DNA from: Gautieria morchelliformis
Lineage: Eukaryota > Basidiomycota > Agaricomycetes > Gomphales > Gomphaceae
Direction: 5' to 3'
Length of the DNA stretch: 64,000 bases
NCBI GenBank assembly: GCA_015179125.1
Contig: WHVA01000042.1
Location: forward strand, 124,001-188,000
Below the pieces are notes generated by a model, which saw nothing but the letters and a program-made list of their open reading frames with translations, did no database searches and was not told the DNA's origin. Made by a program: the position numbers and the translations under genes. Below, one piece after another: positions 1 to 8,575 of this stretch. How positions within the stretch are numbered: the first letter of the stretch is position 1; each line of letters starts with the position of its first letter.

Positions 1-758
1 GGTAGAGTTATAATCTGAGGATACCCACTACACAGTTGGTCATTGTCCTAGTATCGGCTCTTATCTCCTTGAGTATCTTTGGTTGTGGCTTCGTCATTAG
101 TGTTGCCCTCACAGATATCCTCAAAATGCAATCTAAGAGTTAAACGCGGGGGGTGGGTGGTTGTGGGCCCGCTGACCAATGCTTGGTCATGGAGCGCGCG
201 AGCGGCGCAGCCGCGAGCCCCCGGTCTGTTTAGGTCAGCGCCGAGTGGTGCAGCCGCGAGCTACAAACGCTGCGCAGCAGCGTTCCAGGTCACGTGACCG
301 GTTCGTGACCATACGCGAGTGGTCCGTGCACGACCCTTCACTTGGTATAAAGAGAGCGATGCTGCAGAACCGCACTCCCCACTGGTGTCCTCCTGTGTTC
401 TGGCTGTAGTGGGCTTACTACTGCTTTGGCTGGGGTCTTGGTGTCTTTCTGTGTGTCTCTGGGTTTCTTTCTGTGTGTCTCTAGGTGCCTCTGAGCTTCT
501 TTGGCTGTGAATTGACACCAGCTTCTGCTTCAATGTCCTGTATATTTTTTGATATTTTTTTCGCAAATTGCTATCAATACACCTAACTTGCTAACTTTAA
601 TAATAGCCAACTTAAATATCCTGTACATTTTTTTGATATTTTTTCGCAAATAGATAACTTATTCTGACTTTGCTAAAGTTAATAACAAGCTGCTTAAATG
701 TGGTTTCTTTTCCTATTTTATATATGTCACGAAATAGATACTGATACATGTCCCTGAT
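1..758. other. Unassigned sequence, LTR- or promoter-like
   Basis: No gene is recognised here. A CACGTG E-box lies near 290, a TATAAA box near 350 and C/T-rich sequence follows, an arrangement common in fungal LTRs and core promoters. No matching terminal repeat or target duplication was found in the window, so a partial LTR is only a guess. From 537 onward the sequence is AT-rich and duplicated. Confidence 0.25.
537..699. repeat. AT-rich tandem duplication, period about 83 bp
   Basis: Two imperfect copies (537-619 and 620-699) both open with CCTGTAYATTTTTTGATATT, share TTTCGCAAAT and close with an AAYWTGCTTAAAT-like end. No coding potential is seen. Confidence 0.7.
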
Positions 759-1552
759 ATGTGTGAGGACACGCTACCTGTGGGGACATGCTATTACCTG
801 TGGGGACACATTACGTATGGGGACACACTACCTGTGAGGACATGTTACGTGTGAGGACACGTTACATGTGAGGACACACTACCTATGGGGGCATGTCACC
901 TGTGAGGACACACTACCTGTGGGGACATGCTACCTGTGAGGACATGTTACGTGTGAGGACACACTACCTGTGGGGACATGTCACCTGTGAGGACACGTTA
1001 CGTGTGAGGACATGCTACCTTTGAGGACACGTTACATGTGGGGACACACTACCTGTGAGGACACGTTACATGCGGGGACATGCTACCTGTAAGGACATGT
1101 TACGTGTGGGGACATGTTACGTGTGGGGACACGCTACCTGTGGGGACACGTTATGTGTGGGGACACGCTACCTGTGAGGACACGTTATGTGTGGGGACAC
1201 GCTGCCTGTGAGGACATGCTACCTGTGAGGACACACTACCTACCAGTGAGCACACGTTACGTGTGAGGACATGCTACCTGTGGGGACATGTTATGTGTGA
1301 GGACACGCTACCTGTGAGGACATGTTACGTGTGGGGACATGCTACCTGTGGGGACACATTACGTGTGGGGACACACTACCTGTGAGGACACGTTACGTGT
1401 GGGGACATGCTGCCTGTGAGGACACGCTACCTGTGAGGACATGCTACCTACCAGCGAGGACACATTACATGTGGGGACATGCTACCTGTGGGGACACATT
1501 ATGTGTGGGGACACGCTACCTGTGAGGGCACGTTATGTGTGAGGACATGCTA
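759..1552. repeat. 17-bp minisatellite
   Basis: Roughly 45 tandem units of 17 bp follow the pattern GAGGACACGCTACCTGT. Units alternate between CTACCTGTG and TTACGTGTG cores and vary at GGGG/GAGG and CACG/CATG. A few units are longer or shorter. The open frames crossing it are by-products of the repeat. It lies upstream of the Helitron end and may be part of that element. Confidence 0.95.
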
Positions 1553-1975
1553 TCCAACTGCACTTTGGGTCTTCCCCCATTTCTGATTTTGGTATTGTTT
1601 CTGGTTCTGTGAGAGTGTCACCGGAGGATCAGCTGGCATATTGATATAACCACATTGTCAAAATTCAGGATCCCCAAGGTCACTATTGGGTCTATTTCAC
1701 AATGCACGAGCTTTGAAACCTGTGGATTATGACAATAGGCGCAATCTTATAATCTCTGATGATTCAGTCAAGACCATTACCACTTTCATGTCTAGAGTCG
1801 CTGGGAGGGCCATCCCAGAGGTTGAGAGAGAGCTCTGCATGTTCGGCTGTTCCATGGGTGCATACATGATTCATGATACTATATGAACAGGGATATATTT
1901 TGCATGATCCTATTTACCCCAATGCACTTGACCTTACTGATTCACTTGCCCTTACTGAGGCGTTTGACCTACACC
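1553..1975. other. Probable internal part of the Helitron, no gene recognised
   Basis: This stretch joins the minisatellite to the Helitron terminus. A 66-codon open frame at 1686-1886 (+) has no homology I recognise. Short direct repeats of the type CTTACTGA occur at 1931-1960. Assignment to the Helitron rests only on position, since the 5' end was not found. Confidence 0.3.
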
Positions 1976-2003
1976 CCCGCGCGAAGCGCGGGTACCCACC
2001 TAG
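1976..2003 (+). mobile_element. Helitron 3' terminus (hairpin plus CTAG)
   Basis: A perfect 7-bp GC stem, CCCGCGC / GAA / GCGCGGG (1976-1992), is followed after 7 nt by CTAG (2000-2003), and the next base is T. This is the standard 3' signature of Helitron rolling-circle transposons: a short GC-rich hairpin about 10-12 nt before a terminal CTRR, with insertion between A and T. The base right after it resumes an open KDZ transposase frame, so the element ended by inserting in that gene. No RepHel gene or 5' TC end is visible, so the element either starts left of the window or is a non-autonomous copy. Confidence 0.85.
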
Positions 2004-3117
2004 TATCTTGAAACCCTGGTTAAGCTAATGGCTGCTAAGTGAGTTGTCTAATCCCAGCCTCTGCATGTATTCACTCTTCTTCAGTGCACAATGGACACAA
2101 TCATCTAGTCAATGGAAGAGTGCCGATATTACAGATCTGCAGGGCATTGGAGCGTATGCACGTGCTTCTGCAAGCTCACGCCATTTAGAAATGGCACGGG
2201 CTCGCAGTCTTGAAACTTTATTGACACTTCAGGAAGCTGTTCAGGACTTGGAGAGCCAACTGGAGATTGGGGAGCGTTGGGAGAAAGGATCACCGGCGTG
2301 GATTGCCACACAGGCAATGATCGATAGCCGTGCATATTGCCAGGCCATCAACAAGTTGGAAGGTTTAGTTGTGGGGCGGTTGTTTGAATTGGGTAAGGTG
2401 CATCAAGCTGGCACAGGTATGTGATCATTTTGTCCATTTCATTGTAATTCTATTATTTAATACTTTGTAGGCTACAAGCTACGGAAACACATTGGCAAGG
2501 CACTGAAATCGCGGTCAGAAGCCATTCGCAATGCAGTCAAGAAGTACAACTACGCAGCAGCCATGTTGAAGCCACCACGTCCGCCTTTAGACGTACAGAC
2601 AGTTCTTGATCATGTCTACCTTGGTCAATTTGATCTCCTCCGGGAAAGTTGCCATAACATTGCCGAAAAACCATGGGCACATGCGACTGCACGAGAGGCT
2701 ACAACAGCCTACTTCAAATTGCGCCGATCCCACGAGGAAGTCACCTGGGTGTTAGTAGAGGCTCGACGACTGCAAACCTGGATGAAGGATGAGGAAAACC
2801 TCATCCTTCATCACATAGAACAGTTACAGGTTACCAGACCTGCACTATCATTTCAAATGCGCCAGGACTATTCTCTGTTATGTGCTACTAATAGTATACA
2901 CAGGCAACGGTTAGCCGCCCTTGAGGCAGATGAACACTTTGATGGCAAGAGAGATCCAGGAGTACGCAAGGGTCAGGAGATTCAGGACCTGAGGGTGGAA
3001 GAACCAGTGCGAAGTGACCAGGAGGTTGAGCTCGAGCAGGGAGATGAAGAAGGCGAGGATGAGGATGCATTGCAGACCCTAGAATCCACAATGACTGCAC
3101 TCAGTCTTTATGATTAA
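2004..3117 (+). pseudogene. KDZ-family transposase, C-terminal fragment cut by the Helitron
   Basis: Three exons, 2004-2038, 2085-2416 and 2471-3117, join in frame to give about 337 residues and a proper stop. The fragment matches the region C-terminal to the catalytic core of fungal KDZ (Kyakuja-Dileera-Zisupton) transposases: LLTLQEAVQDLESQL, then a Lys-Leu-Glu-Gly-Leu-Val-Val segment, then GYKLRKHIGKALKSRSEAIR, a segment rich in Pro-Pro-Arg-Pro, and PWAHATAREATTAYFKLRR. It ends in an acidic tail (residues about 300-330). The N-terminal Cys-rich part and the RNase H-fold core are missing. The frame is open right up to the Helitron boundary at 2003/2004, so truncation by insertion is the simplest reading. 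The intron junctions are intact, which suggests that the interruption is not ancient. Confidence 0.85.
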
Positions 3118-3433: not shown

Positions 3434-3658
3434 AAATGAGAGATGGTAATTTACATTATTTTTCAAGAATATAAATGTTTAGCATAAGCCTTTCAATGTA
3501 GTATATTTTAGTATGTTCTCTGGCAGTGGGCTGGATAAATTTACATAATGATTACCTCAGCATGGTTTTGGGCGTGCATCTTGGCCTCCACCATCCACCC
3601 ATACTTACTGGTCACAGCCCAGGGACGATTCAAATTGCCTTGGGCTCCCTAGACTTAC
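3434..3658. other. Intergenic, nothing recognised
   Basis: AT-rich spacer between the duplicated KDZ tail and the next gene. No open frame or clear promoter box is seen. Confidence 0.4.
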
Positions 3659-4974
3659 ATGAACAGTGTGCAGGTCACCCCATCAATGAATCCTTGGCCT
3701 GAGTTGGCAGTACCCGCTCTGCAAAACAAAACTATCAATGACCTGAGGGATGCTGATTGCACACAACTCCATATCACCCATGCTGCCCATGGCATGGGTA
3801 ATGATGGAATGGACTGTATGGCATATCAGCATCACCCAGCAATGATCACTGTCCACAGTGATCGATGCAACAGTCGTACCATTACTTCTGCCATGCTCCG
3901 TGACCTGGTAAGTCTCTGCCCTCTCCTGCTCTCGTTCTCGGCTTCACTTCAGGGATCCAAAGATGTTTGCTAATTCTCTCCTTACCAGGTTGTGTACAAG
4001 GAACGGTTTGAAGATGTCACATGCTTTGTATTTGAGCTCACGCCAGAATCGAATCCAAGTGACCAACCCCTCACACCAGAAAAAGTCCTGCAACGCAACC
4101 TCAGTTATCGTGTCCCCCCAGCATTTCAGCACAATGAACGGTTAAAAACATTGATGGACCAGTTTGCGAGTGACCTCGCTGATATTGTCTTGGAGCAAGT
4201 GTCTGAGCTGCCTATACGATGGAAATGGAAGAATGTTAAGGTAATGTCGCTATGTTTATTCATGGATAGATCCCTTAATTCACATTTCCATAGCCTATGT
4301 CAATCCAGCAAGTCGGACCGAGAGATGGTGTTTCCTCATCCCCAAACCTCAATGCCTCGCATTCTGCTCATCGCACCCCTTCGTTGCTTCATTCATGTGC
4401 ATCAGCGCCACCCACCATACCTGTCCAAGGTTCTTTGATACCTGTCCGAGATTCTTTGGCCTCCCCTCATAAGTCCAGCCTGTATGACCAAGCTGCCTGT
4501 CCAGAAACCCCTGTACACCATCGTCATCCACCAGGGCGACTTACCTCATCACTCCCACAACCTAAGGCAAAGTCCACAAACCTATCATCCCCACCTCAGT
4601 TCACAACCCCACCATCTCCACTTCGCAAGCCACCAACCCCAATGACACCCAGTTCTACAGTCTCTCGCCCAAGTTCAATCTCCAGTATCACTGCCACCGA
4701 TCCATGCTATGATTTGCTACAAGAAGATGAGGAACTTAGGAACTTATTGGAACAGATGCAGTTGCCAGACCCTAACGATGGGGATTGTGTGCTTACTTTA
4801 AGGCTAGCCCGTGGAGATACCGTCACTGTCTCTAACGGTATAGAAGGATCATGTCAAAGGGCTGGTAGAACCATATTTCCAGTGCTACCTGCTCCCAATA
4901 GGACTGAGCCGAGGAATGAGGCCTCCTCGTCTTACCCCAGCCTAGCACATTTGCACCGTGAATCCCATAGTTAG
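3659..4974 (+). CDS. Unknown protein, 3 exons, Ser/Pro-rich C-terminus
   Basis: Exons 3659-3907, 3989-4240 and 4294-4974 join in frame at GTAAGT..CCAG and GTAATG..ATAG introns and give 393 residues. I do not recognise the family. Residues 1-167 look globular, with many Asp and His and phrases such as VVYKERFEDVTCFVFEL. Residues 168-330 are low-complexity Ser/Pro/Thr, and the last 60 contain an acidic segment DLLQEDEELRNLLEQMQLPD that could be helical. There is no signal peptide or membrane segment. The gene lies between a KDZ fragment and the unknown gene at 5141, on the same strand, and may be cargo or an accessory gene of a large KDZ element. Clean splicing and no internal stop argue that the frame has been kept. 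Confidence 0.6.
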
Positions 4975-5075
4975 TTTGAATATCTTGGATACTTGGATAC
5001 ACTAGTGGTAGTCTAGTATTGATTGGAAAGTCTTGCTCATGTCTACGGGTCCTTACAATATATGATGTTTGAACT

Positions 5076-5087
5076 CACGTGACCAAT
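5076..5087 (+). promoter_or_regulatory. E-box CACGTG and CCAAT box
   Basis: CACGTG (5076-5081) is followed directly by CCAAT (5083-5087), 54-65 bp before the start codon at 5141. Both motifs bind common fungal activators (bHLH and HAP complexes). Use as a promoter is inferred from position. Confidence 0.4.
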
Positions 5088-5140
5088 GAACAGCATGCGA
5101 CTTTGATCTTCTACCTTGCTCGTGTTCCAAACTCCCCACC

Positions 5141-6509
5141 ATGGTATACAAGGCTGCCCACAATGGTCTTTTTGTCAGAAAGCTGCGTAAGAAGTTTGCT
5201 AGGCCTAAGGAACGACAGTGTGCATTAAACCTTCACTGTGCCGACCGACGAGCAGCAGCAGCCAAGCTAGCTGCCAACAGGAACTTGCTATGGGCTGATA
5301 TCCAGGAATACTGGAAGAATCAAGATGAATACATCAGACAACTGGCTTTAAAGCATGATAAGAAGGAGGAGTGGATGCGCCTTCAAGCGTGTCGCACTGG
5401 GAAATATGGGCGGCATCGCAAAATCAGCAAGTATAATGCTTGGTTGCATGCAAGGAGCCTTGTATTAAATGAAGGTATGCAACAACTTTGTATTACCAGA
5501 CCTGCATAACATCTTTGACAGACCTACCCGCGGGACGAAAGACTCGTCTTCTTGAACTACATAAACAGGCGAAGGAGACTTCTTCATACAAGGACATACC
5601 AGAGGCAGAGATGGATGAAATGGTACATGCATTAGAGGAGAAGCGGCTACTTGAGAAGAAAGGGATCTGTTCAGGACCTGCAGCCCATTTGAACGATGTT
5701 CGCGTGACTACGAAAGGTGTTGGAGAAGAGGTGAGTCCCATACATCCCATGGCTACCTTGAACTAAAACATACCAAATGAACATATACAGTTGCTCAATC
5801 TGCAGAAGCGTTGTGCTACGGCGTCATTTTCAATCACCGTACGAACCGACCCATCACATGCAAACTTGCCTCTCATCTATCATGATGCAGTATCGCAAGA
5901 TTTTATCGAGCTTCTTTTTGGGATGGATATAGATGACTTTGCATTGAAAATGGAGGCATATGCATTGTTCCGCATCAAAGGTATGTGAACTTGATTAGAG
6001 TCAATGACAATTTGCTTACTGAGGTACAGGAATTGCCAAAAACAATAATGATCGCAAAACGATGACGAAGAGGATCGTATGTGTCTTGGTGAAACGTGGT
6101 CTGCGTAAGTATTGCAGAAATAAATTATACGTAGCTTTTGGCTGATTAACATACAGGTGAGATTACTGGTGAGTACTCGCTGGACATGGAATGGAAACGC
6201 TATGAAAGCAAGATCGTGGACACATGGAGAGTTGAGTTTGTAGGCTGGCCGGTCAACGAGTTTGACCCGCATGTGCTTGGGGTGAAGGACCTGGAGACTT
6301 GTGTAGCCGCACTGAAAGACCCAGACCCAGTGTGTTATTGGCGCAAACTGGATGATGAAGAGCTCACGCAACATCACACGTCATTGAATGCAAAAAAGGC
6401 ATCAGGGGAAATTGTAACAAAACAGCGTAAAAAGCGATCAGATGCAGGCAAAAAAAGGGGTTCAAAAACGAGGCCACGGGACGACGGTGACAAGGAGAAT
6501 GAGCGATGA
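5141..6509 (+). CDS. Unknown basidiomycete-expanded protein with a Gly-Trp-Pro signature
   Basis: Five exons (5141-5474, 5522-5730, 5791-5980, 6030-6104, 6157-6509) join in frame to 386 residues. No enzymatic motif is recognised. The N-terminus is very basic and helical, with many Arg/Lys/Ala and a WADIQEYWKNQ stretch. The middle has a coiled segment (MDEMVHALEEKRLLEKK). The C-terminal part has the pattern MEWKRYESKIVD..FVGWPVNEFDPH, then WRKLDDEEL, and ends in a Lys/Arg tail (about residues 350-386) that looks nuclear. From memory, proteins with this RYE..GWP..basic-tail layout form large copy-number families in Agaricomycetes and often lie near KDZ transposases. Function is unknown. Confidence 0.65.
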
Positions 6510-8575
6510 GTGGTACACACAAGAGAATGAAGAGCACATAGTGCATCCATTATCCCACTATGATTTGGATTAGACATCAGGTGTATAGATCCTTTTATTT
6601 CCTGCCTCTAGCAGACCCAAGCCACAAAACAGCGAGAAGTCGAAGCAAAAGGCAGCAAAGTTGCACACCGACACAAGTTTACAGGCCTCTGGGCCTGCTC
6701 CAGGGGGTGAGAGTAACATAAATACAGTGGGTTACTATGTACAGAGGTCCCTGCGGAATTTCGAAATTAAACAAACCGTACTGAAGAGTTGTTGTTGTTG
6801 TCGTCGATGACGACGAGCATGGGTGTTTCCAGCACATGCGTGGTGATGAGCCCGCGGGGTTGATGATGCTGGAGCCTATGGGTGCCCACACGCTTGGTGG
6901 GATTAACCGTTCCACGGTCACCCGGTAGCCTGGTGGCTTTCCCAGGATTTGGTTTTCCTCAGTTCAACATTATTTGCGGTATTATTTGCGGTATAAGGCC
7001 CTAGCTACGAAACATATCCAACTGGAAGGGACATCCGGTCCGCCAGACCCGTCTATTTGGGTTTGTCATGCACGGTACATCAGGTGTTATTTTGAGATAC
7101 TTTGTCGTATTTTAAAATACTCGTACAGTACAGCGGGAGATCTGCATCCTATGCAGCAGTGGCTGTCACAGCGGGACCAAGCTCAGGGTCTGCAACTGTG
7201 CATTACAGTAGTTGCAGAACAGCCTGGGAGCTCGAGATCGGCGTCGACGGAGCTCCCTGGATCAAGCATGCTCGCTTCGATGGAATACTCTCCCATGCGG
7301 ACTCATGGGTGTTAGAGCACTGGTAGCGCACGAAAATAAAAGACCTACAGTGAAAGCGGAAAAAGTGAACAGGCCTCAAAAATGCTCAACAATATGTACG
7401 TAGTACAAAATAGTCGCCCGGACGACTTTCATTGAAAGCCGTTGCCCGTTGCCGACAGACCGCGTTGTAGAAAAATAGAAAAAGCGTTTAATGTGGCCGT
7501 ACCGAAGACGCCCCTGCGTTGCTACTCTAGGACACGACGTCACCGCGAGAACAGTAGAACAGAGTACGTGTACCGAATAGAGGTCGAGATAAGATAGACG
7601 CCTTAAACCGGGTCCAAAGTTGACTAATCTGCTTACAATTTCGCGAAGAAATACCTTTTTCGGCAAGAAAAGGATTACGAAATACGTCGATATATCTTTA
7701 TACGGCGCTGAAAACTCCCATCCACGACAACAAATACAAAGAACCGGGAAGCCGGATCTATATCTCCCGGGGTTAGAAGCCCTTGTCTTCGAGGGAACGA
7801 CAAGGGAACTCAGATCACATAGTTTGGGCCTTGGCAAGGCCCAAACTATGTGATCTCGTCAGAACCTGTGGTACCCACTTGGTGCGTATACTACAACACG
7901 AACATAAAAGTACTGAATGTTAACCAGAAAGAGCATCGCAGACTTTGAGACTACTCACATGATCCAGCAACTCATTCTTGGATATTGGTTTCTTCGCCCC
8001 CTTTATTCGATATGTTGGGCCATAAGCCTCTCTGCATTCAGTGTAGAAGTCACCGCTCGGTCTCAGGAAAACTTCAAATTTGTGTCCCCAGAGCCAACGT
8101 GCCTTGGGCTGGAAAGAATATATAGGGGACATGTTCCGCTACAAGGACGGCCCAGGAGCAACTCACGGGAGGGGCAGAGATAGTATGTCGTGCTCACTAC
8201 CAGGTGTACGCCGAGAGGTAGAGAGCCAGAGCTAAGTAGAGGACAGCAGCGAAGAGAAGGTCAAAGAACGCGAAAGAGAAGTGGGGGTTGCGGTGTTCAT
8301 GGTGCGTCTTGGAAAAGGCTGAATATACAACTTATACGGTGACCTTTGTCATTAATGTGAGTTATAGCTTTCTCAGTCTGGCCTTGCTATATCCTCACGA
8401 TTTCTGAGATACTAAGTAAGGCCGATACCGGCAGATCCCTCTGAATCTGGAATGGTGCCTGATGCCTGCCGCTTTCCCACGATTTACCAGTTGCACCAGC
8501 AAAGTCGTCCGCTCAGCTGGATGCGTGTTGAGCAAGACTAGGCAGCACAGCAGTGTTGTCATATCTACCATGGTC
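6510..8575. other. Gene-poor stretch of 2 kb
   Basis: The open frames here are short, lack introns that would extend them and show no homology I can recognise. The one clear structure is the palindrome at 7812-7856. A direct doubling of TATTATTTGCGGTATAA-like sequence occurs near 6970-6995. Decayed repeat sequence is likely but unproven. Confidence 0.4.
7812..7856. repeat. Perfect 21-bp inverted repeat with 3-nt loop
   Basis: The left arm 7812-7832 (begins AGATCACATAGTTTGGGCC) and right arm 7836-7856 are exact reverse complements around GGC. Either strand could form a strong hairpin. No poly-T run follows, so a Pol III or intrinsic terminator is not indicated. No flanking duplication was seen. 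Confidence 0.9.

Follow-up and report, generated by a model that had tools for sequence, protein, structure and literature searches.

A non-autonomous canonical Helitron nested with other transposons in a KDZ transposase gene of Gautieria morchelliformis

In this study, we describe a canonical Helitron within a nested transposon stack in the genome of Gautieria morchelliformis (122 Mb in 1,113 contigs). The window, i.e., the whole stretch of 64,000 nucleotides that was analysed, corresponds to C471:124001-188000; negative coordinates lie to its left, and 0 denotes the base that precedes window base 1. The repertoire of the genome (KDZ, Helitron, Ty3 with chromodomain, short introns) would by itself suggest a fungus and probably a basidiomycete. 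The Helitron is complete and non-autonomous, and it is located in an exon of a KDZ (Zisupton-like) transposase gene that also harbours a Ty3-type LTR retroelement, with a gap of 18 bp between the two. The history that very probably accounts for this arrangement is as follows. The KDZ DNA transposon would have inserted at TTATTTTG and been in place before the others. The Helitron would then have entered the transposase-gene exon between A (131) and T (2004) without duplication, and the LTR element would have come to lie 18 bp to its left, in either order relative to the Helitron. The Helitron itself most likely owes its movement to RepHel acting in trans and encoded by full-length elements with which it has its termini in common. 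This is a known kind of event and an ordinary one. What the locus offers is a fully resolved case of three transposon classes nested in one gene, each marked by a target signature of its own.

Both ends of the Helitron are visible in the sequence (Table 1). The 5' start, TCTAAGAGTTAAACG at 132, directly follows an A and is the TC end of Helitron1 elements; the 3' end likewise has the CTRR form and the subterminal hairpin of this group. The preliminary description had read a Helitron terminus composed of a 7-bp stem, a GAA loop and CTAG, stopping at 2003 and followed by T, and the sequence is as it described, with a 7-nt spacer between the hairpin and CTAG. In the DNA fold of window 1964-2003 (-9.6 kcal/mol), this hairpin is the sole structure (z = -4.2), and 0 of 200 shuffles equalled it. 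A 24-base piece of the 3' terminus, searched with up to 3 mismatches, matched once in the window, where 100 shuffles gave 0.00 matches on average. The genome search for other copies, which had been proposed as a check, yielded 697 exact matches to the 28-base form of the 3' terminus (one Y) and 0 to the reversed control. T directly follows 695 of these 697 and is absent in the other 2. At C1015, a 3' end reads CACCTA, the final G being absent. Exact 14-base 5' ends (TCTAAGAGTTAAAC) occur at 332 sites and span several subfamilies, units at C269 diverging from the window sequence after about 16 bases; CACCTAG directly precedes 247 of them, and A precedes 75 of the remaining 85, which leaves 10 with neither. 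The stricter 26-base 5' terminus is found at 87 places in the genome. Among the open frames examined within 132-2003, none is a RepHel frame, and the window Helitron is without genes.

The insertion can be placed at base resolution. When the genome was searched with window 1900-2100, the matches split at base 2004: among the 40 matches listed (of 1,397 candidates), one is the window itself, 37 are confined to the left part, with ends at 2004 or no more than 11 bases past it, and 2 are confined to the right part, with starts at 2004. The latter two, at C424 and C400, are KDZ paralogues without the Helitron, and they are also the only two genome matches, both exact, to a 26-base uninterrupted site searched with up to 2 mismatches. 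The uninterrupted KDZ copy for which a search had been suggested is thus present twice, at least at the site itself. Both empty sites read ...CAAAATGCAA|TATCTTGAAACC, and window 114-131 joined to 2004-2023 is identical to both. Because the joined flanks are identical to the empty sites, the target was A (131)|T (2004) and was not duplicated, so that two empty sites display the A-T insertion without target duplication that characterises Helitron1. The proposed empty-site alignment therefore bears out the A|T junction and the earlier claim that a Helitron had cut a KDZ gene at base resolution. Over 1,200 bp to the right of the site, the window is 98.4% identical to C424 and 98.2% to C400. The left junction between KDZ and Helitron, searched with up to 2 mismatches, occurs only once in the genome, so that it reflects one insertion into this KDZ copy. 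We count C424 and C400 as Helitron-empty sites and not as working genes. Both paralogues are imperfect: the C424 frame closes early in the exon left of the site, and the right part of C400 was matched only as two separated blocks.

The host KDZ transposon spans -10250 to 7086 (17,337 bp, or about 7.8 kb without the inserts) and has the terminal inverted repeats (TIRs) and the 8-bp target duplication of Zisupton-type elements. Only left ends were found at C424 and C400 within the stretches examined, and the right end of the C400 copy was not found in its stretch. The KDZ domain (PF18758) matches the C424 exon left of the site with an E-value of 1.8e-45, from profile position 100 to the profile end at 217; earlier C424 exons score weakly, below the cut-offs (KDZ, 20.2 bits in the exon just before, against a cut-off of 26.6; CxC1, 23 bits). 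The parts of the window gene that were tested, P0001 and 2461-3114, gave no hit to Pfam at E 0.001. Since the pieces tested right of the site are devoid of Pfam matches, the Helitron cut behind the KDZ domain, and the window gene part is assigned to KDZ only through its continuity in the paralogues. The KDZ frame that had been proposed to open at 2004 is supported by this continuity, but the Pfam KDZ domain lies upstream of the insertion. The end of the exon at 2038 and the start of the next at 2085 read as previously proposed, and the intron between them (2039-2084) is presumed. Further open frames are located within the KDZ element at window 3653-6509. No Pfam match at E 0.001 was obtained for the frames 4294-4971 and 5090-5506.

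The LTR element has two LTRs of 395 bp with 5 mismatches between them and TG...CA ends, and it is flanked on both sides by the 5-bp duplication GATAT. Its Pfam domains are reverse transcriptase, RNase H and integrase, in the Ty3-type order, and a chromodomain. The 18-bp KDZ remnant to its right consists of the right copy of this duplication (114-118) followed by 13 bp, the last base of which is the target A.

Table 1 Features of the nested transposon stack in window coordinates.
Feature	Position	Strand	Basis or remark
Ty3-type LTR retroelement, 7,644 bp	-7530 to 113		paired LTRs and Pfam domains
End of its 3' LTR, terminating ...CCCTCACA	1..113	+	LTR alignment
18-bp KDZ exon remnant GATATCCTCAAAATGCAA	114..131	+	joined to 2004-2023, equals C424/C400
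Complete non-autonomous Helitron	132..2003	+	1,872 bp, TC...hairpin...CTAG
Helitron 5' terminus	132..190	+	59/59 bases equal the 5' end of the 6,030-bp RepHel element at C164
Minisatellite within the Helitron, 34-bp unit, about 23 copies	762..1552	+	repeat analysis and alignments
Subterminal hairpin CCCGCGC-GAA-GCGCGGG	1976..1992	+	7-bp stem, GAA loop
Helitron 3' end CTAG	2000..2003	+	sequence and genome-wide copies of the terminus
Rest of the interrupted KDZ exon, first base the target T	2004..2038	+	genome matches and empty sites
Presumed intron GTGAGT...CAG	2039..2084	+	sequence and reading frame
KDZ gene C-terminal part, exons and at least one further presumed intron	2085..3117	+	frames; no Pfam match of its own
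Right TIR of the KDZ element, 430 bp, 97.9% identical to the left TIR (start -10250)	6657..7086	-	alignment
8-bp target duplication TTATTTTG	7087..7094	+	same 8 bases before the left TIR

The position of the N-terminal KDZ exons bears on another reading of the locus. The preliminary description predicted that the Helitron starts to the left of the missing N-terminal exons or carries them off. Helitrons are known for gene capture, as reported in the relevant part of PMC4289320, and the N-terminal exons are indeed not adjacent to the insertion. They do lie on this contig, however, at -10250 to -7531, outside the Helitron and about 7.6 kb further left, because the LTR element with its own target duplication stands between; nothing else separates them from the site. 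The Helitron begins at 132 with KDZ sequence directly outside, both flanks are KDZ and, once joined, they reproduce the empty site exactly. That the Helitron captured the KDZ exons, or has its 5' end far to the left, is thereby refuted, and we leave it practically no probability.

A similarly negligible probability attaches to the proposal that the hairpin and CTAG belong to the KDZ gene or arose by chance. CTAGT by itself is common, with 58 occurrences in the window, which is nonetheless below the 92.6 expected, and paralogous KDZ loci containing the hairpin and CTAG had been named earlier as the finding that would speak against a Helitron. Neither of the two paralogues that were found has them there. 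The other adverse finding that had been named, a terminus without further copies in the genome, is not seen either. The hairpin fold, the 697 genome copies of the terminus with none for the reversed control, and 100 shuffles of the window, none with a comparable match, lead us to reject a chance motif. Very improbable, if slightly less so, is a joint entry of the Helitron and the LTR element, or the guidance of one by the other, in place of two independent insertions. Just 18 bp of one exon lie between them, but both are complete at their ends and bear separate target signatures (the GATAT duplication versus A|T without duplication), and the LTR end is absent from the 30-bp left flanks of 15 other Helitron 5' ends. 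Two independent insertions into a resident KDZ element remain our preferred account.

Mobilisation of the window Helitron requires a source of RepHel in the preferred account, and the genome contains at least 150 places with Helitron_like_N (865 candidates). A 6,030-bp element in the region C164:96101-102300 agrees with the window Helitron in all of its first 59 bp and is 92% identical to it over its last 64 bp. It has a single, open 1,671-aa frame with HMHI, GSGGAGKS and KYIHKYLYKG, which we take to be the RepHel motifs HuH, Walker A and tyrosine; it is flanked by two other Helitron ends. Outside the termini, no match between this element and the window Helitron was detectable, so that the window copy is no simple internal deletion of it. 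At C992, a 1,729-aa open frame contains Helitron_like_N (5.6e-58), PIF1 (2e-65) and a Pif1 2B domain; the 3' terminus of this RepHel element is 94.4% identical to that of the window Helitron over 71 bp, and its 5' end was not recognised within the stretch examined. In addition, 26-base 5' ends lie 2.4-3.1 kb upstream of a Rep domain on the same strand in at least 19 of 87 cases, a lower bound since 68 of the 150 Rep places were compared. Judging from the sequences, the C164 element (both termini shared) and the C992 element (3' terminus shared) are likely helpers, through which RepHel would have acted on the window copy in trans.

A third RepHel element (1,659 aa, C572) was set aside as a helper: its 5' end, TCTATAG..., differs, and its 3' end was guessed by eye. 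This element is on the reverse strand and about 7.8 kb long, and a GAA-loop hairpin resembling that of the window was seen by eye near a CTAG. The scripted 3'-end search at C572 returned only an upstream 3' end.

We propose rolling-circle strand transfer for the window Helitron, starting from its two ends, the empty site, the common termini and the open RepHel frames, which are directly observed. RepHel would nick at the 5'-TC, displace one strand, stop at the hairpin and CTAG, and join the strand into an AT dinucleotide. The experiments with Helraiser, in the part of PMC4778049 concerned with them, support the hairpin as the terminator and the A and T junctions. Helraiser/Helibat1 resembles the window Helitron in its 5'-TC and CTAG-3' ends, a palindrome that stops 11 nt short of the 3' end, and its A and T junctions; it is a bat element with a palindrome of 19 bp, whereas that of the window Helitron is 17 bp (PMC4778049 and PMC5876387, in part). 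Among fungal elements, the canonical Helitron1 elements HELPO1 and HELPO2 of Pleurotus ostreatus share with the window element the 5' T[C/G], the hairpin and the 3' CTRR or CT[A/T]G, and they resemble the system described here in AT insertion without duplication and in a RepHel with Rep and helicase in one frame. Compared with the account of HELPO1/HELPO2 in the relevant sections of PMC4289320, the window copy is non-autonomous, 1.87 kb long and equipped with a minisatellite, and its relatives often occur in head-to-tail arrays. FoHeli elements of Fusarium oxysporum (PMC5148889, in part) are Helitrons of a fungus as well; they include non-autonomous forms, show self-insertion and in rare cases stand in tandem. 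They are non-canonical according to the title of that paper, whereas the window element has Helitron1 ends as defined there. The host element shares the KDZ domain, TIRs and 8-bp target duplication with the KDZ/Zisupton transposons treated in PMC12730594 (in part), from which the window's KDZ copy differs in being broken by two insertions.

Relatives of the window Helitron frequently adjoin one another. The 247 sites at which an exact 14-base 5' end abuts CACCTAG, the 3' end of another Helitron, were defined by the seven bases before the start; the hairpin is also there in the fetched loci, in some with changed bases. These are sites and not events, as the duplication of whole arrays would inflate the counts. 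In the fetched loci, a sample biased because they were picked by similarity, 10 of 16 distinct 5' ends matching from query base 1 abut CTAG, 1 lies at a distance of 2 bp, and 5, including that of the window, follow A. The 2-bp case is at C359, where TT separates the 5' end from the CTAG of another Helitron. For the 26-base 5' ends, 28 of the 45 in the comparable part of the list abut another Helitron end. The stretch C269:122687-150223 contains seven junctions, all in one orientation, and the three that were read delimit two unlike units, one of 1.9 kb without RepHel and one of 6.2 kb with a broken RepHel. The array at C992:97001-109600 comprises RepHel, second RepHel-like and non-autonomous units.

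Tandem Helitrons are known from plant and bat genomes (PMC5876387, in part) and from M. lucifugus, Drosophila, rice and maize (PMC5148889, in part); for a three-copy tandem in Metarhizium acridum, the latter offers 5'-end insertion as one of two explanations. Unlike units stand side by side at C992, C269 and C164, and for this reason we consider it unlikely that every array arose as a simple concatemer. A tentative reading, which we regard as possible rather than probable, is that Helitrons with termini of this class insert by preference next to other Helitrons, the simplest target being the A|TC of a resident 5' end. They would thereby build oriented head-to-tail arrays of unlike RepHel-bearing and non-autonomous units, with self-targeting, rather than read-through concatemers, as the main mode of accumulation; the window copy would belong to the minority that lands in foreign DNA. 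The array pattern allows targeted A|TC insertion and rolling-circle concatemers to be tested against each other in a RepHel-rich genome.

In a comparison of five elements, the 1,550-bp copies at C241, C102 and C47 share 98.6-98.9% identity with the window Helitron in the 3' 657 bp but 90.5% in the 5' 522 bp. The first 201 bp of the window Helitron are nearer to C1070 and C700 (94%) than to these three, and the window copy may be a recombinant. From the alignments, the minisatellite appears to be shorter in the C241, C102 and C47 copies.
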